From the NCBI RefSeq assembly GCF_041260155.1, contig NW_027248279.1, forward strand, positions 1,927,264 to 1,991,263: a DNA stretch of 64,000 nucleotides. Reading direction: 5' to 3'. The stretch comes from Ptychodera flava. Lineage: Eukaryota; Hemichordata; Enteropneusta; Ptychoderidae. Under the pieces are notes generated by a model, which ran no database searches, was not told where the DNA came from, and saw only the letters and a list, made by a program, of their open reading frames with translations. This document shows positions 3,768-36,604 of this stretch, piece by piece; the first letter of the stretch is position 1, and each line of letters begins with the position of its first letter. The translations under genes were made by a program, and so were the position numbers.

Positions 3768-3821
3768 TTAAAGTGCTACAATCACCCGCTAATAATTAAA
3801 AGGGAAATAAAAGCGACTTAC

Positions 3822-4466: not shown

Positions 4467-4790
4467 AATATACGGAAGTGGTTACGGAAACAGTTAAGTC
4501 CTTATCTGAATATCCAATTCTCGTAGTTTTACAAGAAAACTCATTCTCATTATGAGATGCAAGAACATCAAAATGTAAACCTCCTTCCGTAACTTTTCCA
4601 TGAAAACTGCCATCTCTGACATCTTCCTCTTGAATCTCTTCGTGATCATCGTCAGTTATCAGTTGGTCATTTTTGTACCAGCTGATAGTAGAGACAGGAT
4701 TACTGGAGTCTGTTACACACGATAACTCTAACCTGTCTCCTTTCCTAGCTGTGTCTGTGTATCCACTCAACGATACAGAGAGAGGTGCAA
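4467..4790 (-). CDS. Gene 1 exon: Ig domain 4
   Basis: 108 residues, acceptor AG at 4791-4792, donor GTAAGT at 4461-4466, phase 1 both sides. Ig signature: ELSCVTDSSNP, STISWYKNDQ, and NEFSCKTTRIG. It is one of the most conserved domains between the two paralogues, differing at roughly one residue in eight. Gene 2 has an extra Cys where this copy has Gly (TTRIG). Confidence 0.9.
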
Positions 4791-5174
4791 CTGCAAAATG
4801 AAATGAAAATGTAAACTTTTAAACAGGAAAGGTGAATGACACATTTGTTAAATTCCAATGTAAGAATCATCAATTTTTTACTCTGCCTGTTTTGGGTGCG
4901 AAGAAAAAGTTTTTGAGTCGTTATTTATATCTAATATTAAAAAGTAATCGCAGAACATGCAATCGTTTAAAAATCGCCTACATACCAATGAACTCTTACC
5001 TTTGTCGCTAAAGCGACCAATATTCTTTCAAATAGAGCTCAATTTTCCTACAATCGTACAGTTTTTGAGAAACATGCGGACATTTAATATATTTTTGAAA
5101 CGGATTAAAAAATCAACTCATAGATAAAAATTATAATCCGTTCGCGAAAAAATGTTATAGAGTATGCAACATAC

Positions 5175-5471
5175 AGTGTACAATGAGATGTGCCGTTCTA
5201 CATTCCAGTGTGTTTTCCCTGATATCGTTGAAAGCATGATATTCAAAAAACACTTGATTATCGCCTCGACTCAGATCCCATGAATATTCATTGATCGCTG
5301 TCTCGTCTTCATCGTAATCATTAGTTTCATGAAGAATAGCCGCGTCTGTTCCATTAATCCATTGCAATGTTGCAAGGGGATTTCCATCAGATTCACAGGT
5401 AAGAGTAAAATAGTCATCTTCGTCGAATTGGTCTCCCGCTGTGTTACTGCAGATTTGCCAAGTAGGAGAAT
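5175..5471 (-). CDS. Gene 1 exon: Ig domain 3, strand F Cys replaced
   Basis: 99 residues, acceptor AG at 5472-5473, donor GTATGT at 5169-5174. Strand B Cys is present (TLTCESDGNP) with the Trp in TLQWINGTD, but the strand F position reads VFFEYHAFN where gene 2 has VFFECHAFN. The single Cys-to-Tyr change removes one half of the core disulfide, while the frame and other residues are kept. The nearby LEC could only substitute with a shifted pairing. Confidence 0.88.
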
Positions 5472-6453
5472 CTGCAAAATTTAATACAATATAAAAATAC
5501 ATGCGGGATGTACTGTGCATCAGCTACTCATCAGATCGGGTAAACTCTCATTGTCTGTGCAAGTATACTTTAACTTTCACTTTAAATACTCAGAGTACAT
5601 CCGGAACAAAAATTGCAACCCTACAGAGCAATTTACATATTTATCATATACCCATGCCCATATTGCTACATCCTAGTGATGTTCAACGTAAAATATCAGC
5701 CGTGATATTTCACGGTAAACGTCGAGATATGCACGATGAACGTCATCAGTTTTAGAGTTTTCCCGAACTACATTAGCAGTTTGTTGGTAAACAACGTAAA
5801 AAACAAAATGGCTGCCGCTCCCCGCCTGCGAAGCGATGTCGCCGACGTAAAAACTTGAAGGGCTTCGAGGAACACGGGTATTTCTGGTTGCAAAATACGG
5901 AAATATCACGTTGAGTCTTGAAATGTTTTCCCATGGTATTTTTTGGTCAAGTTCAAACATTCTGCCTTTCGCACGGCGCCGGCACTGTGCACGGTCTCCA
6001 CCGAACAGATAGTGAGCGCGTGGCGTGACAGCGATGTGGCGCGCGCGACGACTGTTGACATGACAACTCTAAGGGTAAACTAACAAAATGGCGTCCCTCT
6101 CCGCGCGAGCTCCGTGCCATACGACGATCGAAATCAGGATAGATTTAAAGCTGAGCAGTTTTTGATCGGTTACAGTTGTAATAGCATATTGCACCTTAAA
6201 ATGTTCCTTCTGTATGACGCTTTTTGTATCCTGGTGTCTTTCTTCTTGGGTTTCATTGAGATATGGACGACTTGCAGCGATGTTGCGCGTGATGTTGACA
6301 TCTTCATCGTATACTTTATGAATGAAGCCTGTTCACATAAACATTCTGATATTTATGCGCAAGGCGTAATAAAGTAAAGCCTCAAAATTAAAGGTTTTTC
6401 GTTCTATTAGTAAAAATTCCCTAAAATTATGGTCATGGGTATATGATAAATCG

Positions 6454-6603
6454 GTTATTACCAAATATCGCCTGTTCCTTGTGTCATATCAGCATTCGTG
6501 TCATTTGTGCTGCGTCAGACACTCAACTTCGTCTCGTGTCTGACGCAGCACAAATGACACTCATGCTGATACGACACAGGAACAGGCGATATTGGGTAAT
6601 AAC
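6454..6603. repeat. 150-bp hairpin element in gene 1 intron
   Basis: Two arms of about 68 bp pair nearly perfectly around a 13-bp loop; the outer ends read GTTATTACC and GGGTAATAAC. The arms include TGTGCTGCGTCAGACAC. It ends about 60 bp from the donor of the Ig 2 exon. This looks like a small foldback or MITE-type insertion; no coding sequence. Confidence 0.75.
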
Positions 6604-6662
6604 CTCTAATTATATTTCAGCAAGTAGGGATTGACCCGGTGAATGGATTGAAGTGCACCTAC

Positions 6663-6974
6663 ATTTTACATCAAGTATCTCGGTACAGCTCGGATTTTCT
6701 TCGGTCGCATCGTGATTCCCTTTACAATCATACATTTTTCCATTGTCATAAGGTGTTAATATCCAACAAGATACGGTTTCAGTCACAACGTCATTATCCT
6801 CTGTAGTAGAGGTACATTCAGGTAACGGTTCACTATTGTTGTACCATTCCAAGTGTGGTGGGGGATTACCGCCAGTAGCTTTACAGGTCAATTCTACAAA
6901 ATCCCCTTCTGCGATGTATCTTTCGTTGTTCTCTACGTGTACCTCACATAGAGGCCATCCAGTTTGTGGTTCGT
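6663..6974 (-). CDS. Gene 1 exon: Ig domain 2
   Basis: 104 residues, acceptor AG at 6975-6976, donor GTAGGT at 6657-6662. Begins DEPQTGWPLCEVHV and contains ELTCKATGGNPPPHLEWYNN (strand B Cys and Trp) and KMYDCKGNHD (strand F Cys). Additional cysteines at LPECTS, VSCW and NPSCTE imply extra disulfides. Matches gene 2 35178-35492. Confidence 0.9.
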
Positions 6975-8103
6975 CTGTTTGGTGGAAAATGAAAAAATAT
7001 CATATCAAAACTGAGATCCTTCATTTCTCAAGGAATTTACTCTCTGAAGAGCACTACATTCTGTAGTGGAAGTATCTGCCAAGCTTAAATATGCAATTAT
7101 TTGAAAACCCGCCGCGAGATTTTACCCAGTCTCTTCTGAGGTTATATATCAAAAGTTATATTCCCTGACTGGTAGATGGTTTTCAGAGTAGGGGAAGACA
7201 GCTTAGCGGTAAAACTAACTGGCCAATATTTCAAAAGGTATAAAATATTAGCATAGTAGCACCCGGATGAATATGCCACGTAATAAACAAATTTATTGTA
7301 TCAGCCAGGAAAACATTCATCGGCGTCACTCGGCATGCTGAACATATTTATGCACTGTCACATTCATATGCATGTGTGACAAAATTGATCAAAATTGATT
7401 TATTTTCTGTTTCCTTCTGACTTAATATTCCCTAGTGTAACCGTACATATTTTATTCCCGTCGACATTATTTCATAATATATGGTACAATTGTTTCATGG
7501 AATAGGTGCGTTTTATAGTCAATGCGTGTTCTGATGTTCTTCTGAAGGGGAGATGTCGAGAAACGTTATACAAATATAGCTACTTCTTAATTCCGTGACA
7601 ATGAAGACAGATTGTAATCTCTTCAGTTCCTTCCAATATCCTGTGTTTACGTATAGTGTGTGTGTATGCGTATACTCAGAGCGCATCGCTCACCACTGGA
7701 TCTGGTCGTCACTTATCCACCCACTGATACATTATATTATTGTAGCAGTAGTTCATCTTAGCTGTAGTAATAAAGTTTGAAGAAATACAGTCGACGCCTC
7801 TGTCTCCATCACTCAAAAGATCCTGCTTCGTAAACAATCCCACACATTGTTTTGTTCACGACATGGTACAGAAACTGGTACAGAAACTGGTATGTATTTG
7901 TGCACCAAACTCTAGACATGTTGTGTTGGAAATTGTTATAGACTCCGTAAATGGTTTTCCGACTTGAATACTTATTCGATTGGAATATTTATAAAAGTTT
8001 AATAATAATCTAATCAACGTAGTCAAATGCAATGCATTATTTACTGATTTGGTTTGTGTTAACATTGGAAACCAATTATACAATAAAGCAGTCGAATACT
8101 CAC

Positions 8104-8385
8104 AGTACACATCGATAAAGACGGCAGTTGCATCGAACCCTTTCTGGTTTGTAGCAGTGCAGTTGTAATAGTCGCGTTCGTGCTTGGTAATGCTGAGAAT
8201 TGTCAATTCACTTCCATCTTCGTTCATTTGGTATTTGTTTCTGTCAGACAATTCTACACCATTCTGTGTCCAGTCGTACGTTGGTGAAGGTAAACCATCT
8301 GCTGTACACATCAATAGTACATCACTGCCTTCAATAATCGGTAATTCATCGATCGAAATCACTATGTCAATCGGCGCAAAAGGGA
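8104..8385 (-). CDS. Gene 1 exon: Ig domain 1 (I-set)
   Basis: 94 residues between an acceptor AG at 8386-8387 and donor GTGAGT just below 8104. Textbook I-set: VLLMCTADGLPSPTYDW, then LTILSITKHERDYYNCTATN, with an NCT glycosylation site at the strand F Cys. About 85 per cent identical to gene 2 36323-36604. It splices from the V-like Ig exon. Confidence 0.92.
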
Positions 8386-8454
8386 CTGAAATAAAACAAG
8401 TAGACGGGGTTTGTGTAATTATGTTAAAAATACCCCGCAAACACGCCTAAAAGG

Positions 8455-10375
8455 AAATCACTGAGATTCGGGTCCAACTTTTGAAGTATGGCTTTGAACC
8501 TAGATAAAAGAAAAATATTGACAATTTCTTACCAATCATTTAAATCTTACCCTGAGTCGCTGAATGAGTATGCACTTAGCTTGAAAAATTAAGTGATCAA
8601 TGAAGCTGGAAAAATAACACAAAAAAACTTGCCGTTGAAGTTAATTGCAAGTTTACCTTTCACTTTACTGTCAGAGACAATCTTACTCAGCGTAAACTTT
8701 CTGAATATTGCTATAAATTGTGGCACAATAATGTCACAATCATCAAAAAATAAAATTCAACGCATCTTGGATTGTATTACTGTTATGTATCCATAATCGT
8801 CCTTACTGGTACTCATCCATTTTCTAACATTTTAAAGTTTTCCGAGGATCTACGCATTAGCGTTCTTGGATCCAGTAAATATCACACAATGCAACTCCAT
8901 TTAAACCAAAAAAATAGTGGCGTCACTGGTCAGAGTTATTTAGGATACGTTTTTTAATATTTATGAATTTAGTAAAACGACAAGTTGAGACAGTAGTTCT
9001 TATTCTAAGAGGTGTTGTGGCTTTAAAATTCAAAACAAGCTTTCAATCTTGGTGAGCCTAAAAAGTTCCGTTCGATGGCACCTAGTCTAGCAGGCTACAA
9101 CACTGTCGTCACCATTCTCTGCCGGTGTCAAGTCGCCAATCCCGATCCTGGTCATTAATATTTACGTCGTACGGATATTGATACTGTGACTCGTATCAAG
9201 TCGGTACATACCTACAAACATTAGTTATTTGACATAAACTCGGTTTTGTTATCGACTTTCGACGATACGTCCACGGCGCTTTACATAAGAGTACAGGCTC
9301 CAGATGACATCTGTCGTCTTCACTACATTCTGAAATTTGTCAGTATGTTGAATAACTTGATGTTTTTCGCCTTCTCAAAGTTCATACATACTTATTTTCT
9401 GAACTTCCATTGTTGCTTTTAGGTTTATCGCAAGGCACGACGTCAACATTGAGCCGTACGACAGGAGCCGCGACGTTACTAAGCTAATCGGTCGATGGCA
9501 CCTCATTCGACGGGAATATTTAAAGCTTTAGCGACCAGAAATTCGTTTGGCATGTATTCCATGTTTTCATGTTGGAATGTATCGCATCGCGCATTTCTGT
9601 AATTATCATAGGAGTAAGGTATCGATCGCGACAAATCGGTATGTACGCACATGAATAAAATGGTAGAATATGGGATTTTATCAGTCCTATTCTACTTCAC
9701 ACTGCGTGGTTGCAAACCGGGCCGATTCGTGAATTGTTTTACGCCCTTATCATCTTGCCATTACTTGACTAGCATCATTTAGATATCACATAGGCATACA
9801 GTCCTAGGAAGGGGTTTTATATAGCGAATTATAGCGTTGAAAGATTTCAGCTCTTTTATTTAAACACTCGTCACAGAAATAAAAACTCGTCACAGAAATA
9901 GACGTAGCACAAACCGACTGCCAGTGTCCCGTATATGATGTATTCTTCAATAATTTCACATATTTCATGTGCCTTAAAAGTTGTTTGCTAAAACTGAACA
10001 CAAACGAAAATGAACATTCTTTTGGTAAAATATTATTGTTACAGGGTGAGAGACATACAACATCATACCTAAGATATAATAATTTCAAGCTATTCGCATC
10101 ATTAGTACCGCTCCATGCAAAGACAATACATATAATACAATCAAAATTAATCTCAAACCGTTGACGTGTTCGCTATTATGGCATGTTGAACTCTCAAGCT
10201 GGAGTTCGAAATTTGCACGAGCTCAAAAATGTGACGCAGGGTACACATCGTCTTGACGATAATATAAACTTCGGCTGAAGCCAGTCAGATTGCCGGATTC
10301 CAGCTAAGCACATTATTATCAGAGATGAATATTATCATAACAACTTATGCAATATGTGAAAAAGAGACAGTTTAC
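8455..10375. other. Gene 1 intron 2, with stretches matched in the gene 2 upstream region
   Basis: No exon seen. Parts of this intron reappear upstream of gene 2: 8460-8660 matches 36660-36875, 8700-8930 matches 42600-42860, about 9040-9200 resembles 54770-54920, and 9390-9490 resembles 57010-57125. In gene 2 these blocks are separated by mobile elements, showing that the duplication included noncoding DNA and was later stretched. Confidence 0.6.
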
Positions 10376-10723
10376 CTAAGACATATAAATTCAGTCTTTC
10401 TTGCTCGCTAATACCCTCCATAGCAACAATACATCTATACTCCCCTTCATGTAGAGTTTCAGCTTTATCGATGACCAAGTTAATTCCGTCGGTGCTATAA
10501 TAATCTTCATAGTTTAACCAATACACTGCTGAATCTGTAATTTGTACTATGGTGGTACATCTTACACCATCTCTGCTTATACACCATTGCAAGAAATCAA
10601 TGTTACATGATTCGTCTGCAAAGTATTCACATTCCAGCATTTCTGCTTCACCTTCAATAACCTCTACAGTGTTCCTGGGCATCTCTACTCTTAGGTAACA
10701 CGTTAGTACGGACGATGGAAGTC
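10376..10723 (-). CDS. Gene 1 exon: N-terminal V-like Ig domain
   Basis: 116 residues, acceptor AG at 10724-10725, donor GTAAAC at 10370-10375. Starts GLPSSVLTCYLRVEMPR. Strand B Cys in EAEMLECEYFADESC, a core Trp in FLQWCISRDG, and the strand F motif LHEGEYRCIVAMEG. Extra cysteines (DESC, QWC, VRC) suggest additional disulfides. No counterpart was found for gene 2 in the window, so this is the N-terminal domain specific to the visible part of gene 1. Confidence 0.88.
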
Positions 10724-11087
10724 CTGATGTGAATAATAAAAATGAATTAATGAATCTGTAATTCATTCGATATACCGGGCAATAATTAAATCTGGCAAAC
10801 AATCGGTTAGGTTTACGTGTTTTGGTGGTTACACTGTTTTTAAAGTTATTTTGGATAAAATTACGGTTGACGAAGTAAATCAAATGCAGGATATTTGAGT
10901 TCCACTAAAATAAAATAGGGATGTCTTAATATTTGTTCGGAAACTGTAACTTTTCACATTTTTCTGTATTTTATATTGATGCCTGAATAACACTTCCTTG
11001 GTCAATTTACCTAATCGTTCAAATAGTTTGCCAAAAAGTAATTCACAAATTGATTGCTGGAGGCTGTTTAGTACGGACATACGCGCA

Positions 11088-16779: not shown

Positions 16780-19700
16780 TTTCAATTGGAAAATACAATG
16801 GACAGTAAGAAAGTGAGAGTACAGTCAATATCTACGTCTACAGGCATTCATTTCTCAGCTTTGTTGCCTTGCACACAAATAATGCCATTTTAAAAATTAC
16901 CATACCGTTTGAAGATGACAAAAGTGAGTAAAATTTTTGATTTGTTGGGAATGTATATGACCACCTGGGTAAATATCTGCAACGTAAGTTCTGATACAGA
17001 GGGCAAACACAAATAAAATGATATTCATCCTCAATCTCGGAGGATCCACAAACTCTACAAATTTTTTCTTCATATTCAAGACCCTTCGCCCGCCCTTCCT
17101 TGACTTCCAACCCTAAACAACACATTCTCAGGGAAGCAAGAGCTTTCTTAAGTTTAAAGTCCATATCTGATCTTATGTAATTTTCTGTATGAAACTGAGT
17201 CTTAAAATTACAATACAAACGAAGTTTGTTTTTACTGCAAATATCCGAGAACCACTCCTGTTTATACATATCTATTGCTCTTGTCATAAAAAAAATTAAG
17301 AAAAAGGTTGAAATCACCAGGGCCCTGCCAAAGCCAAACTTCCCAAAGCCATGTTCATACAGAAGATGTTTGACATGAGTTGCCCAGGACACTTTGTTGT
17401 TTTTATCGAGTGTTACAGCAAGATCATAGGCATGTTTTGTTATTCTGTTCCCTGGCATTGACAAAAGCTTAAACCAATATGAAAGGACTTTTTATAGGTG
17501 AAAACTGGTAGTCTCCCACAATCCCCTAGAATACAGGCATTAGGGGTAGACGACTTGACACCCAAAAATGTTTTAAAATACTTGAGTTGCACTCTTTCAG
17601 CAAAGTGATACATATCATAACCCCATAATTCTGCTCCGTATGTCAAACTGGCAATATCATTGTATCAAAAAGCTTGCAATATTCATTAAAAGGTAAGGTA
17701 CCAGTATTTCTAATCATACGAAAAATACATCCCATTGCTTTTCTGGCTTGGTCTGCTAGCGTGCCAACGGCTTTACTCCAAACATTTCTACTTGATAACA
17801 TTAAGCCTAGATATTTGTAGTAACTGACAATAGTGATTTTTTGTCTATTTAGAAACCAATTTTCATTTTTTTAACTACCCCTCCTCGTCGGAAAACAATA
17901 ATGTGTGTCTTATTCATATTTACAGAAAGTTTCCATTTCTGACAGAAAGATTCCAATACTCTAATAAGTCTTTGTAAGCCAATTGGGGTATCACTAAAAA
18001 TGGCAACATCATCGGCGTATAAAAGAGCAAACAAATCATACAATTCTTGTGTAAGTTGAATACCACCATATCCTGAACTCATCAACATAGCATTTAACTC
18101 ATTAATAAAAAAGAGCGAGAACAAAAAAGGGCTTAACATACAGCCTTGCCGTACTCCGACCGAGCAATGAAAGAAATCGGTTACTCCTTGATTAGCCTTT
18201 ACACAAGATTTAACTTCATTATACATAGATTTTAAAATGTTGTACATTTTGCCCCCTACTCCCTCTACACAGAGTCTATATAACAAAAGGTGATGATTTA
18301 CAGAGTCAAAGGCTTTACTGAAATCCACAAATAAACAGTAGAAACGGCCCTTTCGTTTAGTTAGGTATTTCTGTATCATGACATGCAGAATAAAAAACAT
18401 TATCAACAGTACTAAATCCACGTCTAAATCCTGCCTGACACTCAGTAATAGAACCTTTCATGTCAGCCCACCTGACCAATCTCTGGTTCAAAATATAAGT
18501 AAAGATTTTTGCCAAGCAGTTTAATAGAGTAATACCTCTGAAATTGTTTGGATCTTGAACACTACCTTTCTTGTGAAGTGGTACGATAATCCCTTTGCTC
18601 CATTCACTTGGAAACACACCGGAGTCAAAAATAACATTCGACATGAAATCCAGTAGAGGAATTATACTGACTTTTGCATTTTGATAAAACTCATTTGGGA
18701 TACCATCTGGGCCTGGGGATTTGTTACTTTTCAAATTATCAAGTGCCAGTTTAATTTCTGTAATAGTAATTTTCCCATTAAGTATATCGTCAAAGATATT
18801 ATCTTCTCCTGGTACTTGGTCTACATTTGCTAAAAAGTCTTCCACTGTAATATCAAACATAGTTCTATCACACTGAGGATTATGCAGTGATTTAAAATGA
18901 TTTATCCAATCTAGAGGCGAAATATTCGGTGCTCGCTTTTGCAGCCCCTATAAAACGTTTGACTTGTTTCCAAATGTTACCCTGACCAATGTTCCTACAA
19001 AAATCATTTCTGAACTCATCTTTGTTAACTCTACAAATGGTTTTAAAATGTGACTTCCGTTCCTAATAAACATTTAAACTTTCCCTGTCATTTGAATTTC
19101 GAAAATGCCTAAGCGCTTTGTACATTTCTGTCTTTGCCGATTCACAATCTTTGTTGAACCATTTGGGTTGCCGGCTTCTACAGTCACTCCTCTTTTTCAA
19201 TGTTACCTTGGTGTAATCTGCCGCAGCCCAGTATAACAAGTCATAAATGTCAGCAACTAACTTATTTACATTATTTACATTACCTCTATTTTGTTCAACC
19301 AAATGCTTTACACGCTCTTCACCTTCCCTTGATGATATCTTTGCGTCGAAAACACCCGTTTTTTCATTATCCTATTTTACATATGTATACTTCTCAAACT
19401 CAATAGCGCTAAATTGCAGCGTTTTTTCTGCATGACATAACCCTTTAATTTTCAAGGTAAAAATCAAGGGAAAGTGATCGGAATCACTCTTTTCTTCAAC
19501 ACTGAAATAAACAATATCATCAAAAATCGTCGTGGACGCAATAACATAATCTACAACACTTGTCCCTCTGTTTGCAATGCAAGTAAATTCACCTTTATGG
19601 TCATTTCCACATCTTTCATTGAGAAATGAATAGAGTGATCCCGACACAATTCTAATAGTCTTCTACCAAATGAGTTAATAACCGAATCTTTTGAATGTCG
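16780..19700 (-). mobile_element. Non-LTR retrotransposon (LINE), 5'-truncated, frame-broken
   Basis: Minus strand. The tail of an APE-type endonuclease (SVVDYVIAS, SDHFPLIF) lies at 19372-19690. A reverse transcriptase follows at 18860-17849 with SPGPDGIPNEFYQ, FVDFSKAFDSVNH, GVRQGCMLSPFLF and the catalytic LLYADDVAIF. The C-terminal part has a zinc-knuckle-like CRVCGSSEIEDEYHFICVC (about 17061-17005). The endonuclease N-terminus is missing, and the reading frame shifts inside RT (near 18390) and several times after it, so it is dead. Clade uncertain; the C-terminal Cys-His region and FLGVKSSTPN motif are found in I/Jockey-type lineages. Confidence 0.88.
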
Positions 19701-21494: not shown

Positions 21495-21615
21495 TTACGT
21501 CAATCTTTGTATACCGGCAGTCGACGTGTCGCTTGTTTCAAGGAGTTCCACCAAGTCATAAAATGTTGGACGACAAGAAGGGTCTTCCTGCCAACACTTT
21601 TGCATAATCGAATAC
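21495..21615 (-). CDS. Gene 2 last coding exon: kinase C-lobe end and stop
   Basis: Forty residues after an AG at 21616-21617, phase 2 start, TAA at 21495-21497. Reads YSIMQKCWQEDPSCRPTF, the conserved subdomain XI of tyrosine kinases with the CW and the invariant Arg (CRPTF), then DLVELLE and a short 13-residue tail. There is no long C-terminal tail with phosphotyrosine motifs, so such signalling sites are limited to the juxtamembrane region. Confidence 0.93.
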
Positions 21616-22183
21616 CTGATAGTATTAAGAAACAAGACAAATTATAAAATAACATGAAATATACTGAATCTACTGAACTTTTACATACATTTTATCAACA
21701 TTCTGTTACCAAACTAGGGTATGAGATAACGCTAAGCGTGGATTTGTAGGCTCGTATTTTTTTCGAAGGGGGTAGAAAAAGATGGACGTGGCAAGTACCT
21801 ATAACTGCACACACTCAAACCATTCGATACACATACCGTACTGTATAATTATTGACAGCTCATGAATATTTTAAGTTTATCATGTTAGATCTTTTCTTCT
21901 CTGTAATGAACGAAAAACAGGAAGTTTATGTTACATCCACACCATTTTGACTACGTGTCAACCATTGCGTCAAAAGTTTCTTTTAAATTGATAATATACA
22001 TTGATTCAATATTTTCTAATCCCTGGGGTTTTTATTTCAAATTAATAGACTTTAATTTATATTGTCCCCTACTCAATATATAATGGTAAGGTCTCCGTAA
22101 ATCATCATAAAAATAGAAAACGGTAAAATGTTGAAAATGTAGTTTCCTTCAAATGCTTTATTCAAGTATAATGTAATACTTAC

Positions 22184-22280
22184 ACGTCTTCAGGACACTT
22201 ATTTGGCATGGGTAGTCTGTATCCCTGTTGAACATTCGACACAACGTCTTTCAAATTCATGCCTCGATACGGGTTTATAC
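22184..22280 (-). CDS. Gene 2 exon: kinase subdomain X
   Basis: Begins phase 1 after AG at 22281-22282, ends phase 2 at GTAAGT (22178-22183). INPYRGMNLKDVV followed by GYRLPMPNKCPEDV matches the tyrosine-kinase consensus after subdomain IX (NPYxGM, GYRLPxPxxCP). No change from the family pattern here. Confidence 0.93.
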
Positions 22281-22467
22281 CTTGAACATAAAATTATTCA
22301 ACGTCACATCAGTATGCATATTTTATCCGTCTTTCAGAAAAATCAAAATTGACAGATAAAGCCAGGTATTATATTGTTTATGTCCGCACAGTCAGTTATC
22401 TATCTGAGATACTTAGGTTGACATAGAACTAAACAGAGATTAGGACAAATATACAAAACTACTACTT

Positions 22468-22474
<7 letters not shown>

Positions 22475-22565
<91 letters not shown>

Positions 22566-22830
22566 TTGAGTTGTGTGTGTTTGTGTGTGTGTGTGTGTTT
22601 CAATGATGAGGGGAGTATAAGGGCATGATTGATATTATTTTAAGCTAAAGAGGTGGTGTTCTGGCAACCTGTGCAAGAACACCGTGCACCCCTCCACGAC
22701 GAGGGGGACTGTATGGTGGCACACTTAAACATTTGAAATTTTAGCTAAAAAGGCGGCGTTTATGCAAGCTGTGCCAGACTCCCCGTGCCACACCCCTACT
22801 TGGGGGAACTGCATAGGAGACACATAGGGC
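22475..22830. repeat. TA/GT tract and two-unit GC-rich repeat
   Basis: A TA tract (about 22475-22562) runs into GT repeats, followed by two diverged units of roughly 100 bp (about 22638-22735 and 22740-22830) sharing TTTAGCTAAAxAGGxGGxGTT and a GTGCACCCCTCC-like block. In the intron between kinase exons. Confidence 0.6.
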
Positions 22831-23029
22831 CTTCCTCATACACTAACAATGTTGAGGGACTTAATACTTAAAATTAAAGCTTATATAATGGGCAAAGTAT
22901 ACATAGTCCAGATGTGAGTGTCTCTGTATTACTTAAACAGATAGATATGCAGATTAACATATAAGCATATAGATAGATAAGTGGGTAGAATGATTGGCAG
23001 GTAACTGATAAAAGTATAAATTTCTTTAC

Positions 23030-23141
23030 CAAAGCTGAATATTTCCCATAGCAATATTCCATAAGACCAAACATCTGTCGCCGATGTGTACAAGCACTCG
23101 TCAATCGATTCCAAGGCCATCCACCTAATTGGTAAAGTACC
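23030..23141 (-). CDS. Gene 2 exon: activation segment end, subdomains VIII-IX
   Basis: Phase 0 start after AG at 23142-23143, donor GTAAAG at 23024-23029. [13 protein letters not shown], then [27 protein letters not shown] is diagnostic for tyrosine kinases. The usual APE (or APES) reads ALES, so the Pro is replaced by Leu. The structural Asp and Trp of DVWSYG are kept, as expected if the fold is maintained. Confidence 0.94.
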
Positions 23142-23271
23142 CTATGAGATAAAAGAGTCTGTGTTTTAATGTGGACCCTGTGTATCGCACAAAGTCAGTG
23201 TCGAAAGAAGAAGGGTTATGTTTTATCATGTCTACTAAACGATTTACTAGTGTATTCTATGTCCATATTAC

Positions 23272-23394
23272 CTTATTCATCCGTTCATAAGTTTCCTGAT
23301 CCATGACGGCGGTCGAAAATCCAAGTTCTGATATCTTGCAGGTTTTTTGTCCATCTACCATGACGACTCGCGCGGATAATTGCCTGTGGACACA
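23272..23394 (-). CDS. Gene 2 exon: degenerate catalytic loop and DFG region
   Basis: Forty-one codons, phase 0 on both sides: acceptor AG at 23395-23396, donor GTAATA at 23266-23271. Reads CVHRQLSARVVMVDG, then KISELGFSTAV. Aligned with the tyrosine-kinase consensus VHRDLAARNVLV and KISDFGLS, the catalytic Asp is Gln, the metal-binding Asn is Val, and DFG is ELG. HR, the second AR and the KIS are retained. The activation segment has one Tyr (ETYERMNK). The start was set by phase: only this acceptor keeps the frame with the preceding exon and restores VHR. Confidence 0.93.
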
Positions 23395-23674
23395 CTATTG
23401 TATTGAAATAACGATAGTCAGGATTGGGATACCATTTATGATGGGATAAAGTCAAAATTTGCGTTGCATACATAACACTTGAACACATATTATTACACTT
23501 TTAGGTTTTGTTTTGTCTGTGTTTAATGATGTGTGTTGGTTTTCTTTTATTTGTCATTATTATTTCATTGTTGGTGTACAGAGCACTGAGACGAAGTGTA
23601 GTGCGCGCTTTAAGAAATAAATAATAATTATAATAATTTTATATTCTATGAAAAAACAAATCGGCAACAGTTAC

Positions 23675-23823
23675 CTGCATTTCCGCAAGAAAACACATTC
23701 CCTTTGCACAGTCCAGTGAAAACAACAAAAGTTCTCTCATTTCAGTAGCCTCACGGTCTAACTTCTTGAGATACGACTTTAAGTTCCCATAATGACAGTA
23801 TTCCTGAACAAAACGAAGGGGGA
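23675..23823 (-). CDS. Gene 2 exon: kinase hinge and helix E
   Basis: Phase 1 start after AG at 23824-23825, phase 0 end at GTAACT (23669-23674). PLRFVQEYCHYGNLKSYLKK is the hinge and alpha-D region (EYCxxGNLxxYL as in receptor tyrosine kinases). LFSLDCAKGMCFLAEMQ is helix E. There is no kinase insert, unlike PDGFR/VEGFR types. Confidence 0.93.
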
Positions 23824-23864
23824 CTGGAAATGAAGAAAAATGATGAGTTACGATAAAAAGAGTA

Positions 23865-24118
23865 TGAAAGTCCGTGAGGGACATTTTTTGTGAGGAAAAA
23901 AATATTATCTCGTGCGCACGAGATACTATCTTGTGCGCACGTGAAAGTATCTGGTGCCCACCAGATACTTTCTCGTGGCCACGAGATAGTTTCTCGTGCG
24001 CACGAGATACTATCTGGTGCGCACCAGATACTTTCACGTGCGCACAAGATTGTATCTCGTGCGCGCGAGATAATATTTTTTTCCTCACAAAAATGTCCCT
24101 TATGGGCTTTCATAAAAG
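23865..24118. repeat. Palindromic minisatellite within a larger palindrome
   Basis: About eight tandem units of roughly 20-30 bp, each itself palindromic around a GTGCGCAC core (ATCTCGTGCGCACGAGAT and variants such as ATCTGGTGCGCACCAGAT). Outside the array are inverted arms: AGGGACATTTTTTGTGAGG (23877 onward) and its complement ending near 24102, extending to TATGAAAGTCC on one side and GGGCTTTCATA on the other. It lies about 40 bp upstream of the acceptor of a gene 2 kinase exon. Confidence 0.85.
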
Positions 24119-24504
24119 AGAGATGTAGCGCGGTTCATTTTACAAATATTCTTATATCTCCAATTATTATTGAGCAATTATAATTATTGTTGTTATGTTA
24201 ATAAACAGCAATAGCACAGAGAATAATTTTAATTACATTGTCTTTCAAAAAAAACGTTTGTTTCTTGTTTGCGTTGTGCTATCTCTCAAAGTAATTTAAC
24301 ACATTGATGTAGGAGTAAGCGGAGAGATAATCATTATTCGCATTTTTTATTTAACCCTAACAATTGATCACAGACTTGATGGTGGTAACTTCAGCGGTTG
24401 ATCATCCTCAATTCTAATAGAAAGTTATAACGGCTTCTATATAAAACTGATTAATATGGTATAGAATAGCGCTGTTCCGTCAAGCACATATCAATTTAAC
24501 TCAC

Positions 24505-24600
24505 CTTCCGTAGTTAATTCTTTAAGACAAGAAACGATATTTTCATTATCAGTTAAACTTCTCATGAATTCTGCTTCTTTCCACAGGGCCTGCTTTCCCT
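24505..24600 (-). CDS. Gene 2 exon: kinase alpha-C helix
   Basis: Thirty-two codons, phase 1 both sides, acceptor AG at 24601-24602, donor GTGAGT at 24499-24504. EGKQALWKEAEFMRSLTDNE followed by NIVSCL fits subdomains III-IV; the alpha-C Glu of KEAEFM is retained. The upstream AG was chosen over one nearer the Trp codon because it alone preserves the frame. Confidence 0.9.
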
Positions 24601-24943
24601 CTACGTCTGATGTTTACACATACAGTACATGTAGTACAGAAAACCAAAAACAAAAAGATAATAATAAATATTATTCGTGTATATTCATAGTGGTGATAAG
24701 CATATTTAAGTATCAGATTGTCTCTCTTTATCACTCCTTTCTAAAACAATTTTTCCTTCAATTCCCTCATTCCCTGTCGTCCCTTATCTCTATGTATCAC
24801 TGTAACTCTGTGTCTGCCACTCCGTCGTTGCAGGCTTCTGTCCGTCTAACTCTATTGGTAACCTTTCTTCTCTGTTTGCCTAAAAGTTTACTTTTTTGAT
24901 TCTGCTGTTTGTGCACGTCTGATTGTATCTTTTTCTCCATGTT

Positions 24944-24979
24944 TGTCTGTCTGTCTGTCTATTAGTCTGTCGGTCGGCG

Positions 24980-25042
<63 letters not shown>
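24944..25042. repeat. CTGT and CT microsatellite
   Basis: Interrupted CTGT repeats run into a CT tract. In a gene 2 intron; no coding content. Confidence 0.95.
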
Positions 25043-25557
25043 ATATCATGGTACTTCCTGTTGATCGGAAGTTTCTATAGGACGCATTATGATGCCTTAA
25101 ACAAAATTACATTAATATCAGCTATTAATATTGTATTGTTGTTGAACAAACGGCACCACTAGAATATGGATACGATAGGAGCGGTCGATTGCAGATAATG
25201 ATAAGCACTTTTTCGGCATCGACCCCATACTATAATTGGAAGGAAATGCTGTCAAAAAGTTATGATGCGGCAGACCCAATCATTTGTTCTTTTGATTAAT
25301 GCATCTGTTTGCAGAATATTTTAAAAACCTCGTACTGCGTGTATCCGCGCCAGCCTGATGTTATAGTTTATAAACGGATAAGCAACTGCCAAAATTACTG
25401 ACAGGCTTATTCTTCACTTTTAAATGGTATTAACATTTCAAGTCTCAGTACCATCATTATGTTATAATGTGTCGAAAGAAAAGAATTGTTCGCTTGAAAA
25501 TTAAAGTAAATGTAAACTCATAGTACCATGAGAAATATAATTTATTTTTCAACATAC

Positions 25558-25720
25558 CGTTTGGATCTTTCAACATCTTGACGCTGACGGTCAATGCCCT
25601 CTGTGACGACACTGTTAGTCTTGCTTTCACAAGTTTGGTGAATACGCCATCGATTATCGTATCACCGAACACGAGATCACTGGAAGCAGGTGGCGATTTT
25701 AAATCACATTCTGCATAGAG
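25558..25720 (-). CDS. Gene 2 exon: kinase N-lobe with degenerate glycine loop
   Basis: Phase 0 start after AG at 25721-25722, phase 1 end at GTATGT (25552-25557). Begins LYAECDLKSPPASSDLVFGD. The loop reads IIDGVFTKLVKARL where the consensus is LGxGxFGxVxxA, so the first and third glycines are Ile and Thr. The beta-3 Lys is present in TVSVKMLKD. ATP binding may be weakened but cannot be excluded. Confidence 0.9.
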
Positions 25721-26853: not shown

Positions 26854-26894
26854 CTCATTAGTCGTCTCGATATCATCATTAGACTCGAGCATTC
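26854..26894 (-). CDS. Gene 2 41-nt exon, juxtamembrane
   Basis: Reads MLESNDDIETTNE after completing a Gly codon; phase 1 in, phase 0 out, acceptor AG at 26895-26896, donor GTACGA at 26848-26853. It connects two firmly identified exons and is needed to convert phase 1 to phase 0. Acidic and unstructured; no motif seen. Confidence 0.75.
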
Positions 26895-27447: not shown

Positions 27448-27513
27448 CTTGATTTCTGTTGGTGAAAACAAGTCCCATGTACTCAGTCTTGGTTTGCCGT
27501 AATTCAGCATATG
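27448..27513 (-). CDS. Gene 2 exon: two YxxL motifs (ITAM-like)
   Basis: Twenty-two codons, phase 1 both sides, so inclusion or skipping keeps the frame. Acceptor AG at 27514-27515 (GGGAG), donor GTAATA at 27442-27447. Reads [22 protein letters not shown] and YMGL separated by six residues, matching the ITAM consensus YxxL/I-x(6-8)-YxxL/I. The alternative acceptor five bases earlier (CCAG) gives another open frame but cannot join phase 1 to the downstream exon. It sits between the transmembrane helix and the pseudokinase domain. Confidence 0.78.
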
Positions 27514-28169
27514 CTCCCCTGGAAAGACATTGAATTAATTGAATTATTTTTGACAGAACATAGGCTTTACGAATGTAATCAAAACTGGCAATGGTCTCTT
27601 TGAACGCTTATAGACGTGAAGAGTTGAGGGTGATGGAACTATGAAATGCTGATACTTTGAAAAAGTAAGCGCGTCAGGTTTTTAACTCTTCTTATTTGGA
27701 GCATTTTGATTTCTTCCTGGTTTTATGTGTGATTTCGACAATAAGTAGATGGTATAAACATATCCTAGTGATTTTTCCTATCACTACATTGATTCTTTGA
27801 AATTTCATTCGAACATTTATAAAAAATTAAAACAGAGTTTTTCAAGTACATGAAAAAAATACTCAACTCATTATCTACGCCGTTGCCTGTTTTCGAAGAG
27901 AAAGAACACTTAAATCAATAACAATATATGCTACACCATCTATGTACATTAAAAACGTTTTGAACAATACACGACCATTTATTTAGATATAGTTGCGAGT
28001 TGGCAATTATGAGAATGTTTTCATTTTAAATTCAAACTTAACTGAGCAACGAATTTTCATAATGGCTGTTGCACACTTAATGAGTCCATGAAAGGTGCTG
28101 TGTGTTTTTTGTATGCAAACTCAGCGAGTTGTCCACTCCTTGTTATTACAGCCAATCGTACATCCTTAC

Positions 28170-28238
28170 CAGGCTTATCCTTTGGCGTAACAATATCCAT
28201 ATAGTCGTCAAAAGCGACAGTTTTGGGATTTCCGTAAA
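28170..28238 (-). CDS. Gene 2 exon: juxtamembrane with YMDI motif
   Basis: Twenty-three codons, phase 1 both sides, acceptor AG at 28239-28240, donor GTAAGG at 28164-28169. Reads VYGNPKTVAFDDYMDIVTPK. VYGNP has a YxN pattern as in Grb2-SH2 ligands. YMDI is a YxxI motif eight residues before the YAEL of the next exon. An alternative AG five bases earlier gives a frame without sense. Confidence 0.78.
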
Positions 28239-28625
28239 CTGGTCTGGGTTAAAAAGAGGAGGACATAAAATGAGTTGTAAACATTGCTTTCGATTGTTGA
28301 TAAAAATCGAGGACGCAAAATGTAAAACAAATAAGAAAAAAACGTCTGTACTTTACCCAACGTTATCTTCCGTGTCTGTAAGAACAATAAGAGACTTACA
28401 GTTACGAACCAGTATGTCGACTTACACAATTTAAATATTCCTTTACATCTGTTTGGTGTACGTTTTAATGGCATTAACAAGTATGCAAATAAACTAACTC
28501 AATATGAAGATATTTCATCCAATATATTGGACTATTAAGAGCCAAACATCAAAACCAAATACTCAGTTACATCATGTATCATCATAATATTATTGTCAAG
28601 ATAACATTCCACTGATATACCCTAC

Positions 28626-28745
28626 CTTTTGAATTTCGTCTCCGTACATATACAAATATGCCAACGCAGAGAGCAGCTAACAGGACAACAGTCGTCAGAG
28701 ATATACCAATTATGGCACCAGTGTTCGATTTCCCTTTCACGTGAA
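28626..28745 (-). CDS. Gene 2 exon: transmembrane helix
   Basis: Forty residues, phase 1 both sides, acceptor AG at 28746-28747, donor GTAGGG at 28620-28625. FHVKGKSNTG, then a hydrophobic helix (IIGISLTTVVLLAALCVGIF), then the stop-transfer RRRNSK. This fixes the topology as single-pass type I. Confidence 0.93.
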
Positions 28746-30459: not shown

Positions 30460-30690
30460 ATTCAGTTTCGTAGGGATCACCACAGTCTGTGTAGTCATCG
30501 TTACAGAAGTATATTCTTAACAAAGCGGAACCCTCGATTGTATATGTCACACTGTCATCACAAGTTCCGTTTGCAGTGTGGAATGTAAGAGTTATCCATT
30601 TATCATCACTCTTCCTCTTGTCTATTTTGATACACGAACCAACTGGTGCAATTATCAAGAGCTCGCCGGTATACTGGTTGAATGTAATAT
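30460..30690 (-). CDS. Gene 2 exon: cysteine-bearing juxtamembrane ectodomain
   Basis: Seventy-seven codons, phase 1 both sides, acceptor AG at 30691-30692, donor GTAAGT at 30454-30459. Starts DITFNQYTGELLIIAPVG; has four cysteines (GSC, GTC, YFC, TDC), a KWITLTFHT strand pattern and a YTIEG. I do not recognise a family. Its predicted beta-rich pattern, conservation in gene 1 and place between FN3 and membrane suggest a small disulfide-bonded module. Confidence 0.82.
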
Positions 30691-30977: not shown

Positions 30978-31001
30978 CTTCGTTCTCAACAGGTGTTCTA
31001 G
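30978..31001 (-). CDS. Gene 2 microexon, 24 nt
   Basis: PRTPVENE with phase 1 junctions, acceptor AG at 31002-31003, donor GTAGGC at 30972-30977. The Gly/Asp codon across its 3' junction completes DITF of the next exon. A matching microexon occurs in gene 1. Confidence 0.8.
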
Positions 31002-31597: not shown

Positions 31598-31906
31598 GTA
31601 AAGTGGAATCACCGATAGGATTGCTTCTTGTACAACCGATCTCATTACTACTGACAACAATGATTAAATATGACGTCATCGGAGTTAGGTCAGTAATTGT
31701 ATCATAAGTTTTCGTGGTCACATTTGTTGTCTCTCCTAACGGGTCACAATTATCAGGAAGTACAGACATTGCCGCCATATTTTGTTGGATATATTCCAAG
31801 TGGAAGACCTGCTTACTACCACCATCATTGCCTGCTGTCCATTGCACAGTCAAATTTGCTTCTCGTCTGTCAATAACTTCTAATTCTGTCGCTGGGTCAG
31901 GAAAAC
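31598..31906 (-). CDS. Gene 2 exon: fibronectin type III domain
   Basis: 103 residues, phase 1 both sides, acceptor AG at 31907-31908, donor GTAGGT at 31592-31597. FN3 features: NLTVQWTAGNDGG (strand B Trp), FHLEYIQ, TDLTPMTSYLIIVVSSNEIG. Only about 30 per cent identical to gene 1's FN3 although flanking exons are far closer. Two cysteines (DNC, IGC) may form an extra disulfide. Confidence 0.88.
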
Positions 31907-32607: not shown

Positions 32608-32910
32608 CTTTTGTAGAAAGATGTATTGTAAAGTTTACTTCATTTATGACGTTGATGGCATGACACCGGTAATCACCAAGATCGGATTCGCTGACATTAA
32701 AGATTGTAAGAACACCAGTAGTGATGGTATCCGCTGTGGTTTTACGCACGAGAAACTTGCCAGTCCCATTGCAGATCGTTTCGTTATTGTTGTCAAACCA
32801 TGTAATTTCGACGTCCGGGTTGCTGTTGATTTCACAGAGGAGATCCGCGTTCTCAGTTAAAATGACTACGATGCGTTGATTTTTTTCTTTGTTCTTCACA
32901 AAGGGAGCAT
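32608..32910 (-). CDS. Gene 2 exon: Ig domain 6
   Basis: 101 residues, acceptor AG at 32911-32912, donor GTGAGG at 32602-32607. DLLCEINSNPDVEITWFD and SDLGDYRCHAIN give the Ig disulfide and Trp. Relative to gene 1 it has an extra Cys in NETICNGTG, unpaired within the domain. Confidence 0.92.
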
Positions 32911-33261
32911 CTGTGGTGCATATTGAAAGTAAATGTAAAAATACCTTATAATACTTCATTTTTATCGGTTATCGAATATTAAGTAGAGAGAGACAATATC
33001 ATTGGTTCTTATCAATATTTTAAGCTTTTGTTTCATCCCTAAAAGTTCACCAAAGTCATTGTTTCACAGCATAATGATAAATTTTGAATGCGAATACTGC
33101 TAATATTGTCGTTCTCTTTCCTTCGACGATTTTATCAAGTCTAAAGTCCTCAGTACTGTGACTGTTGATACGTCGAATGTATTGAAAAGTTACACATTGT
33201 TTGTGAAATTTATTCATAGAATTGCACTGAAATAATATCTCACTAATTAACATAAACTTAC

Positions 33262-33597
33262 AATGTACGTCAAGAATAAGTTCGTTTGATATTACTCTAT
33301 CATTTTCCATTCTAAATTCCTCATTGAAAGATTCACATCTCACTCTCTGTCCATGATGTTGATAGGTGAGATGTAAAGTTAAATCTTGTACTGTTATTTC
33401 ACCGTGATACACCCCTGGTGAGTTAGAAATGTCACCTAAGCCGGTTTCAATCTTATGTTCGTCTTCAAACCATTCAATGATCGGTGTTGGGTTACCACTG
33501 CATGATGTACATGTAAGTACAAGGTCATCGCCCTCTACAACCGGTGCTGAATATCCAGTAAGACTTGTAGTGCAGCCATCTGGTTCTGAAGGCGGAA
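33262..33597 (-). CDS. Gene 2 exon: Ig domain 5
   Basis: 112 residues, acceptor AG at 33598-33599, donor GTAAGT at 33256-33261. VPPSEPDGCTTSLTGYSAP at the start, LVLTCTSCSGNP, IIEWFEDEHK and RVRCESFNEE. High nucleotide identity to 3822-4157. Confidence 0.92.
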
Positions 33598-33899
33598 CTG
33601 ATAAGCAGATATTGTCTATGACAAGTCAGTGTCACTGGAAATCGTTTTGCAAATGCGTACATTTACATCATCTGATAAAGTCTACTTCAAATAATTAAAT
33701 GTTAAAAACTAACAAATGGAAAAACAAAACATCCCGATAGTATAAATAAAAGTGATAACTACAGTATACGAAAGCAATTACGGAGACTGTGAAGTCTTTT
33801 TTTAACTGACTATTTGATGCGAAAACATGTTCAGTACTAGATTAATCTATTAATTCAAAGAGAAAAACGTGTTATGCATATATTTTAAACTATACCTAC

Positions 33900-34223
33900 A
33901 ATATACATTGACAGTTACGGAATCGGCTGAGTCCTCATCTGAATAACAAATTCTTGTAGTTTTACAAGAAAACTCATTTTTATTATGAGATGCTAGAACA
34001 TCAAAATGTAAACCTCCTTCCGTAACATTTCCATGAAAACTGCCATCTCTGACATCTTCGTCTTGAATCTCTTCGTGATCATCGTCAGTTATCAGTTGGT
34101 CATTTTTGTACCAGCTGATAGTAGAGGCAGGATTACTGGAGTCTGTTACACACGATAACTCTAACCTGTCTCCTTTCCTAGCTGTGTCTGTGTATCCAGT
34201 CAACCATACAGAGAGAGGTGCAA
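33900..34223 (-). CDS. Gene 2 exon: Ig domain 4
   Basis: 108 residues, acceptor AG at 34224-34225, donor GTAGGT at 33894-33899. ELSCVTDSSNP, STISWYKNDQ, NEFSCKTTRIC. The last Cys replaces a Gly of gene 1 and may be free for intermolecular bonding. Otherwise nearly the same as gene 1. Confidence 0.92.
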
Positions 34224-34629
34224 CTGTAAAATTGATATGAAAAAAATATTAACTTCCGAAGAGGCAAAAGAGAAATGAAACATTTTTTTAATCACAGTAT
34301 AAAATTCATGACTGTTCTACCTATTTCGGCCTCGATTAATACATTTTAAACACTATCCGCATTATTCAACAAGACGTAGTCGCAAAACAAGATATCATTT
34401 TATATCCGTCGACTTTCCAATCCAACCTTCCTTTCGTAGCTGAAGCGTTCCGTATTCATCATCAAATAAGTTCTCAACTCTTCCGTTATTTTGATAAGTT
34501 ACAAGGAACATTTACAATAAAATATAAAGTTCATAGTAGTTGTCTTTTGACAATGAAAAATCAAATCAATACGAAAACAAACTTAATAATCTGTTCAAAG
34601 AAAATGATGTAATGCAATATGCAACATAC

Positions 34630-34926
34630 AATGTACAGTGAGTTGTGACGTTGTACATTCCAGTGCGTTTTTCCTGATTTCGTTGAAGGCATGACATTCA
34701 AAAAACACTTGATTATCGCCTCGAGTCAGTTTCCATGAATATTCATTGATTGCTGTCTCGTCGTTGTCGTAATAATAAGTTTCACGAAGAATAGTCAAAT
34801 CTGTGCCGTTAATCCACTGCAATGTTGCCAGAGGATTTCCATCTGATACACAGGTAATTGTAAAGTCAACATCTTCTTCGAAATGGTCTCCTTCAGTGTG
34901 ACTACAGGTTTGCCAAGTGGGGGAAT
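34630..34926 (-). CDS. Gene 2 exon: Ig domain 3
   Basis: 99 residues, acceptor AG at 34927-34928, donor GTATGT at 34624-34629. TITCVSDGNP, TLQWINGTD and VFFECHAFN; the core disulfide is intact here, unlike in gene 1. Confidence 0.92.
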
Positions 34927-35177
34927 CTGCAAAATTGGAAAAAAAAGCATGCAGAATGTATGTATTTCAAGTTAATAATACCTTACAATGTTAACACTCA
35001 AAAGTCTGTGTATGTAAGAGTATTCCTAGAACAAAATGTGAAGTAGGTAGCAAAATGTATTTCGGCAAGGTTATTTTGCCAATTTTAATGACTTCCTAAG
35101 GGCAAATGAAGAGTTTAGTAATTTTCTACCTATGGATTCTTTACAGGTTACTCTTTATTCTATGAAATTTTACCTAC

Positions 35178-35492
35178 ATTTAACATCAAACTCTTCATTA
35201 AAACAGTTTGGAGTTTCTTCGGTAACATCGTGTTTTCCTTTACACTCATACATTTTTCCATTGTCATAAGGTGTTAATGTCCAACAAGACACGGTTTCAG
35301 TCACATCGCCATTATCATCTGTAGTAGAGGTACATTCAGGTAAAGCTTCACTATTGTTGTACCATTCCAAGTGTGGTGGGGGATTACCGCCAGTAGCTTT
35401 ACAGGTCAGTTCTGCAAAATCTCCTTCTGCGATGTAGTTTTCGTTGGTCTCCACGTGTACCTCACATAGAGGCCATCCAGTTTGTGGCTCGT
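35178..35492 (-). CDS. Gene 2 exon: Ig domain 2
   Basis: 105 residues, acceptor AG at 35493-35494, donor GTAGGT at 35172-35177. DEPQTGWPLCEVHV, ELTCKATGGNPPPHLEWYNN, KMYECKGKHD. Extra cysteines as in gene 1. Confidence 0.92.
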
Positions 35493-36322
35493 CTGTTTGA
35501 TGGAAAGCGAAACAAAAATATAGTCAATATATAGAAAACTGAAATTTCTTCTGTGTCTGTGAAATACAATACGCTCCATATTGGAAGTATCTGCCTTGCT
35601 TGAAATATGAAATTATTGGAAAAGACTACCGCTAGGTTTTCCGGTTTGTTTTGAAGTTATATATCTAAACGAATACACTTATAACAAGTTGACGATTTCA
35701 GGGGTCGGGGAAGAAAGCTTGCCGGGAAGACCTTTGTCATGTGTCAAAAGCTTTCAATCATTACACAGCGGCACGCTATAGCATATGTCGTGTAATAAAC
35801 ACATCTCTCTTATCAGTCCGGACAAAATCCTTCAGCTTTACTCGGCATGCTTAAGCTATTCATGCTCAGTCACATTCATATGCATATGTACAAGTTTGAC
35901 AAAACTTACTAAATTGATTCATTTTCTGTTTTCTCCAACTTGATATTCCCTGGTATAGCCGTACACTTTATTCCTGTCGACAACGTTTTGTAATATACAA
36001 CCTATATATGATACATTTGCTACATGGACCACGATGCGTTTTATGTTCAATGCGCGTTAAGGGGTGTTCTTCCGAAACGGGAATTTGTTCACAACATTGC
36101 ACAGAAACCAGCGTGTATTTTGCTCTAAACACTGAACATGCAGTGTTTGAAATAGTTACACACTCAGTCAGTTCTTGCCAGACTCAAACAGCTGTTGATG
36201 GGAATATTAAGAATCATGAAAAAAACACTTCTCGCCAACGTGATCAAATGCAATGCAGCTTTGTTTTATGGTTTTTGTTGACATTGAAAATAAACTGTGC
36301 GATAAAGCAATTGAATACCTAC

Positions 36323-36604
36323 AATAGACATCGATAAAGACTCCCGTTGCATCGGTTCCTTTCTCGTTTGTAGCGGTGCAGTTGTAGTACTCGCGTTCGT
36401 GTTTGGTGATGCTGAGAATTGTCAATTCACTTCCATCTTCGTTAATTTGGTATTTGTTTCTGTCAGACAATTCTACACCATTCTGTGTCCAGTCGTACGT
36501 TGGTGTAGGTACACCATCTGCTGTACACTTCAGTAGTACGTCGTTTCCTTCGATAGTGGGTAATTCACCAACCGAGATGTCTGTGTTGAGTGGCGCATAA
36601 GGAT
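36323..36604 (-). CDS. Gene 2 exon: Ig domain 1 (first visible)
   Basis: 94 residues, acceptor AG at 36605-36606, donor GTAGGT at 36317-36322. VLLKCTADGVPTPTYDW and LTILSITKHEREYYNCTATN. It begins in phase 1, so at least one more coding exon must lie upstream. That exon was not found within the next 16 kb apart from the candidate at 52778-53042. Confidence 0.92.

Follow-up and report, generated by a model that had tools for sequence, protein, structure and literature searches.

In the acorn worm Ptychodera flava (Ptychoderidae), a 64,000-nucleotide stretch of DNA analysed here as a whole (the window) contains a receptor gene that we read, with moderate confidence, as encoding a pseudokinase receptor with a phosphotyrosine-docking juxtamembrane (JM) part. 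The gene, called gene 2 below, belongs to an ambulacrarian family of Ig/FN3/Cys-domain receptors that has several hemichordate members. The new part is the recurring pair of tyrosines with the spacing of an ITAM, and not the layout of a dead kinase with Ig domains.

Architecture of gene 2

Gene 2 lies on the minus strand (36604-21495), and its 21 exons join into a reading frame that stays open up to the stop codon, giving 1202 uninterrupted residues if the GAG acceptor of exon JM3 is taken. In order, the gene encodes six Ig domains, an FN3 domain, a 24-nt linker, a membrane-proximal Cys domain (EC-x), a transmembrane (TM) segment, four JM exons and seven kinase exons, as follows.

36604-36323, 35492-35178 and 34926-34630, minus strand: first three of the six Ig exons; open, phase 1, consensus splice sites
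34223-33900, 33597-33262 and 32910-32608, minus strand: last three Ig exons; open, phase 1, consensus splice sites
32608-36604, minus strand: whole Ig ectodomain; five stretches match Pfam Ig_3 and five match I-set
31598-31906, minus strand: FN3 exon; Pfam fn3, E=7.4e-06
30978-31001, minus strand: 24-nt linker exon; phase 1 to phase 1, consensus sites
30460-30690, minus strand: EC-x; similar to P0122 and to Glandiceps and starfish receptors
28626-28745, minus strand: transmembrane exon; hydrophobic run, then RRR
28357-28375, minus strand: JM1, predicted 19-nt exon (DTEDNVG); consensus sites, phase fits JM2
28170-28243, minus strand: JM2, with VYGNP (28239-28225) and YMDI (28203-28192)
27448-27518, minus strand: JM3, with YAEL (27511-27500) and YMGL (27481-27470); acceptor at 27518 or 27513
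26854-26894, minus strand: JM4 (GMLESNDDIETTNE)
25720-25558, 24606-24505, 23823-23675 and 23394-23272, minus strand: pseudokinase exons 1-4; phases fit throughout
23141-23030, 22280-22184 and 21615-21495, minus strand: pseudokinase exons 5-7; phases fit throughout
21495-25720, minus strand: all seven pseudokinase exons; HRQLSARV and SELG in 23394-23272

Six Ig domains could be assembled in gene 2, fewer than the 'seven or more' of an earlier note on this DNA. No signal-peptide exon, 5′ exon or start codon was identified for gene 2 in the window, nor was a counterpart of the first exon of gene 1, its paralogue, found within it. Gene 2 itself was absent among the proteins listed from the protein searches. 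The EC-x of gene 2 (30690-30460) by itself matches no Pfam family; compared by shuffling with five others, it gave p values of 0.001-0.13, and the domain was alike across the hemichordate and starfish receptors P0122, P0124, P0127, P0006 and P0030 (15 pairwise p values of 0.001-0.42).

The window also holds other elements. An intron that separates two of the kinase exons contains, at 23902-24076, seven register-shifted matches of a palindromic unit (CTCGTGCGCACGAG type) at 21-nt spacing, which lie within 102-nt inverted arms (23885-24093); this array is perhaps a MITE-like element. Retroelement reverse-transcriptase fragments at 17849-18947 (minus strand), 57847-58446 (plus strand) and 62144-63073 (minus strand) match Pfam RVT_1, two of four ORFs being under the curated Pfam cut-off.

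Kinase domain

An earlier, slightly shorter model of gene 2 matched Pfam PK_Tyr_Ser-Thr with E=1.9e-66. Among the best 60 of 1099 matches of its kinase, one EGFR entry came first (its two repeats summed), followed by CSF1R, KIT, PDGFRA, FLT3, FGFR3 and RET chains. We aligned the motifs of gene 2 with those of 25 other kinases. The glycine loop reads IIDGVFTKL, and the β3 Lys (VSVK) and the αC Glu are kept; HRQLSARV stands in place of HRDLAARN, and SELG in place of xDFG, that is, HRD is changed to HRQ, Asn to Val and DFG to ELG. Judged from its sequence, gene 2 is a receptor tyrosine pseudokinase, a transmembrane receptor that lacks the catalytic Asp, the Asn and the Asp of DFG. The earlier note had described a receptor that cannot phosphorylate itself, and the loss of the kinase motifs (HRQLSARV, SELG) fits this description.

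In a tree of 26 hand-chosen kinases, from which P0187 was excluded as it lacks a kinase start, gene 2 forms one clade (support 100/98) with P0004 of Glandiceps, the kinase motifs of which read LRMLSART and SEFS. Four other Glandiceps proteins, P0124, P0126, P0127 and P0183, combine HRYLAAKH or HRYLAAEH with SQFG, and these make up another clade (100/100); the sequence of P0133 shows an HRY/QFG pseudokinase. The six hemichordate pseudokinase rows of a second, 24-row tree, from which P0227 and P0194 were excluded, group with support of 53/85 only, and catalysis may have been lost in hemichordates once or several times. In the first tree, three long rows were trimmed to their last 300 residues. 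The catalytic motifs are intact in four starfish relatives, and Glandiceps P0005 reads HSDLAARN with DFG, so that its catalytic Asp, Asn and DFG are present. Another Ig receptor kinase of P. flava, the FGFR4-like P0184, has HGDLAARN and NFG, and is possibly a further pseudokinase.

Tyrosine motifs and splicing of the juxtamembrane part

The motifs follow one another on the minus strand as VYGN (28239-28228), YMDI (28203-28192), YAEL (27511-27500) and YMGL (27481-27470), with the pseudokinase downstream, just where the earlier note had placed them. YAEL-x6-YMGL lies within the single exon JM3 and meets the ITAM consensus, YxxL/I-x6-8-YxxL/I. The available text of PMC12058738 gives x6-8 as the consensus spacing, and that of PMC9731471 a wider spacing of x6-12 that is also in use. 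When the 94-residue JM of the GAG-site model was shuffled 20,000 times, a strict pair (x6-8) appeared in 0.5% of the shuffles and two pairs in 0.005%; the ITAM-spaced pair in the JM of gene 2 is more than chance. In a structure model of P0004 (mean pLDDT 69.6, the kinase part mostly low) the JM is predicted to be disordered, with pLDDT below 50 over residues 753-818.

Once JM1, which the earlier note lacks, is included, all junctions fit in phase with consensus sites, except that of JM2 to JM3. The YMDI exon then begins at a consensus acceptor, CCCAG/ACC (the slash marks the splice point), at 28243, five bases before the start that the end coordinate of the earlier note had implied. As to JM3, its consensus acceptor CAG/GGG (27518) scores 5.6 and breaks the frame from JM2, and its in-frame acceptor GAG/CATATG (27513) has the lowest score, -4.6, where the 20 other acceptors range from 0.2 to 12.5 (each site scored without itself). 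In 20 of the 21 acceptors of gene 2 the AG is preceded by C, T or A, the GAG at JM3 being the exception. Both of the tyrosine intervals had been offered as ITAM spacings: YAEL-x6-YMGL, contained in one exon, stands, while the very poor in-frame GAG acceptor makes YMDI-x8-YAEL doubtful, and the triple tyrosine array, which rests on that splice site, is unlikely.

Four outcomes can be written for this junction. Use of the GAG site gives two strict pairs that overlap. With a micro-exon such as the one below, only YAEL-x6-YMGL would be kept, YMDI being 22 residues off (counted by hand).

27850-27886, minus strand: possible micro-exon (GNGVDNELSIFFM) that would mend the JM2-JM3 phase; acceptor 8.1, donor 3.7

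Skipping of JM3 joins JM2 to JM4 in frame with consensus sites and loses both pairs, and joining JM2 directly to CAG/GGG leads to a premature stop ahead of the kinase. The micro-exon at 27886-27850 is not significant, because equally good candidates occur in 21% of 600 stretches of 651 nt drawn at random from the window; it may nonetheless account for the break in phase.

We compared both frames of JM3 with relatives. In the YAEL frame an 11-residue block resembles YEGLIFNSSNQ of P0004 (p=0.013, against p=0.21 for the other frame). Five other relatives gave p values of 0.07-0.76; P0127 was weak (p=0.07), and the similarity to P0124, P0126, P0005 and P0184 was not significant. The match in P0004, a predicted protein, suggests that a relative uses this exon as coding sequence. 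The frame set by the consensus acceptor was rejected as the main reading of JM3, as it runs into a stop before the kinase and has no significant similarity to six relatives.

Recurrence of the tyrosine pair

We searched for the pair in 243 proteins (242 fetched ones and gene 2), 183 of which have a kinase start, 170 of those with a TM segment. One of the protein searches drew on the best 120 of 2764 matches, so lower-ranked hemichordate relatives may be missing. YxxL/I-x(6-12)-YxxL/I was present in the JM of seven of nine hemichordate proteins and in none of the 161 others, none of which is named as hemichordate and some of which come from metagenome or transcriptome sources. Counted by JM clusters at 60% identity, the pair was found in 5/7 hemichordate clusters versus 0/13 others; the Glandiceps proteins are not independent (P0127, P0133 and P0183 make up one JM cluster, and all derive from contigs of the same length), and the 161 others, mostly vertebrate CSF1R-like and ROS proteins in only 13 clusters, are no broad sample.

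The pair reads YMVL-x8-YTGL in P0005, YAAL-x9-YMKL in P0124, YTDL-x10-YMKL in P0126, and YADL-x8-YMKL in P0127, P0133 and P0183. The consensus pair is absent in P0004, the nearest Glandiceps relative of gene 2 (YVDV-x13-YEGL), where YEGL stands at the place of the YMGL of gene 2, and in P. flava P0184 (YQEI-x15-YQEL), both spacings being counted by hand. On conservation of the tyrosines and their spacing in related species, which the earlier note had proposed as a check, the outcome was thus divided, negative in P0004 and positive for recurrence in the more distant Glandiceps relatives. The pair of gene 2 cannot be aligned to one position with those of the HRY group of Glandiceps; counted back from the kinase by hand, the Glandiceps YMKL corresponds to YAEC of gene 2. 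Since the pairs do not line up, and gene 2 and P0004, which alone are closely related, do not share the consensus, the recurrence could reflect a repeated gain of nearby sites and not a single conserved ITAM. In starfish, JM pairs of YxxL/I/V lie 19 apart in P0006 and 14 apart in P0094. These distances suggest that the short spacing arose in hemichordates, and the JM tyrosines are probably old in the family, predating that spacing. The pair is no consequence of kinase death, because P0005, with HSDLAARN and DFG, also bears it.

Paralogues and selection

A second receptor gene of the family occupies the low end of the window.

1-10727, minus strand: gene 1, paralogue of gene 2; cut within EC-x by the low end of the window, past which its cytoplasmic part lies
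10727-10377, minus strand: gene 1's own first exon; judged Ig-like by inspection, without a Pfam match at 0.001

The P. flava 'nephrin-like' protein P0121 aligns to the exons of gene 1 in seven pieces, three with 100% identity and four with 87-99%, overrunning exon ends, a match that identifies the window as P. flava DNA. Between gene 2 and gene 1, the Ig exons are 72-88% identical each and the FN3 exon 47%. The dN/dS of the two ectodomains was 0.33, a total that includes the counts of the FN3 exon, though the dS of that exon on its own is saturated. Both genes thus look maintained, which speaks against a pseudogene. The public P. flava models P0121 (gene 1) and P0122 (a third paralogue) end at the FN3 domain or shortly past the TM segment, without kinase exons, if such exist. 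A Glandiceps talaboti protein, P0125 (nephrin-like isoform X3), has an ectodomain close to those of P0124 and P0127 and a tyrosine-rich tail in place of the kinase domain, perhaps through tail exchange within the family.

Proposed mechanism and rival explanations

We propose that the nephrin-like ectodomain would be clustered by a ligand or by cell contact, and that the JM tyrosines would be phosphorylated in trans by a kinase of the Src family or by a partner receptor that is active. Doubly phosphorylated YAEL-x6-YMGL would then recruit a tandem-SH2 effector, for which Syk is the first candidate, though a tentative one. Grb2 binds pYxN, and VYGN may be a docking site for it. The pseudokinase itself may act as a partner-binding or regulatory scaffold.

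The YxxL/I sites might instead be ordinary JM tyrosines of receptor tyrosine kinases or YxxΦ endocytic signals, with the ITAM spacing irrelevant to tandem-SH2 binding. YMDI, YAEL and YMGL all fit the YxxΦ sorting consensus; catalytically intact starfish receptors carry JM YxxL/I/V sites (P0094, P0006; 14 and 19 apart), and P0005, with catalytic Asp, Asn and DFG in place, has the pair itself. However, pairs 6-12 apart occur within the set only in hemichordates (five of seven clusters, and 0 of the 161 others), and a strict pair is seen in just one of 200 shuffled JMs, so that we hold this explanation possible but unlikely. We give similarly limited credence to the view that JM3 is skipped, or shifts the frame, and that the mature receptor is without the ITAM-like pair. 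The JM2-JM4 junction is in frame with consensus sites, JM2 joined to CAG/GGG yields a premature stop, and the GAG acceptor scores under all 20 others; yet the JM3 block is matched by YEGLIFNSSNQ in P0004 (p=0.013), and a micro-exon could mend the phase, though such candidates are common. That gene 2 is a decaying pseudogene, as its lost catalytic residues, one problematic junction and lack of an identified 5′ exon or start codon might indicate, is very improbable, given 21 joined exons without a stop, the ectodomain dN/dS of 0.33, and similar catalytic losses in P0004, from another hemichordate family.

The preferred reading remains a pseudokinase receptor with a docking JM. Going beyond it, we offer as speculation, and doubtful as such, that hemichordate Ig receptor kinases turned into ITAM immunoreceptors, in which catalysis was lost and JM tyrosines were re-spaced for a tandem-SH2 kinase, making them candidate upstream receptors of invertebrate Syk/CARD/Bcl10. 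In the available text of a survey (PMC5978004), vertebrate-like Syk is found only in invertebrates having CARD-CC/Bcl10, hemichordates are among the phyla with Bcl10, and the occurrence of Syk with CARD-CC/Bcl10 is taken to imply anciently conserved ITAM-containing upstream receptors. A hemichordate family with ITAM-spaced tyrosines would offer concrete candidates for such receptors upstream of Syk. The family of gene 2 may also present a case of a receptor kinase changing into an immune-style docking receptor.

Comparison with known systems

The ectodomain of gene 2 (multi-Ig and FN3) is nephrin-like, many nephrin-named proteins from several phyla being among the 62 ectodomain matches listed. 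Nephrin has a non-kinase cytoplasmic tail; gene 2 differs in having a pseudokinase after the TM segment. The ITAM-bearing Ig receptors FcγRIIA and G6f-like signal through an ITAM (PMC9731471 and PMC3528668), as gene 2 might. Their ITAM sits in the receptor's own tail, and neither is known to have a kinase-like domain.

The earlier note had seen a new signalling layout in a dead kinase with an ITAM-like tail and seven or more outer Ig domains; the joining of a dead kinase to many Ig domains is by itself not new, as PTK7 combines a pseudokinase with seven of them. In the text available of PMC13259870, eight human receptor tyrosine pseudokinases are counted, including PTK7 with its seven Ig domains, and the word ITAM is absent from that main text. 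PTK7 (CCK4) and gene 2 are alike in having many Ig domains, one TM segment and a catalytically dead tyrosine-kinase domain, but the seven Ig domains of PTK7 go with HKD and ALG (PMC13259870, same text), whereas gene 2 has six Ig domains found, FN3, the Cys domain, HRQ and ELG. Among the literature matches listed, no hemichordate ITAM receptor or receptor pseudokinase was recognized by title or start of abstract, which is no proof of absence. The main text of PMC11175523, which describes the P. flava assembly, contains neither 'tyrosine kinase' nor 'immunoglobulin'.

The starfish Ig/FN3 receptor kinases P0006, P0036 and P0030 share with gene 2 the FN3 domain, the Cys domain (P0006 and P0030), the TM segment, the kinase and JM YxxL/I sites, but differ in their intact HRDLAARN and DFG, and the sites of P0006 are 19 apart. 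P0004 of Glandiceps talaboti (Spengelidae; LOC144440221) has the Ig/FN3 layout, lies in the same clade and is a pseudokinase like gene 2, but has no consensus ITAM pair. The Glandiceps group (LOC144439911, LOC144439912, LOC144440250 and FGFR2-like entries; P0126, P0124, P0127, P0183 and P0133) matches gene 2 as Ig/FN3 receptors with a pseudokinase and an ITAM-spaced JM pair (x8 to x10); in contrast to gene 2, the pair stands directly before the kinase, and the kinases form a separate clade.
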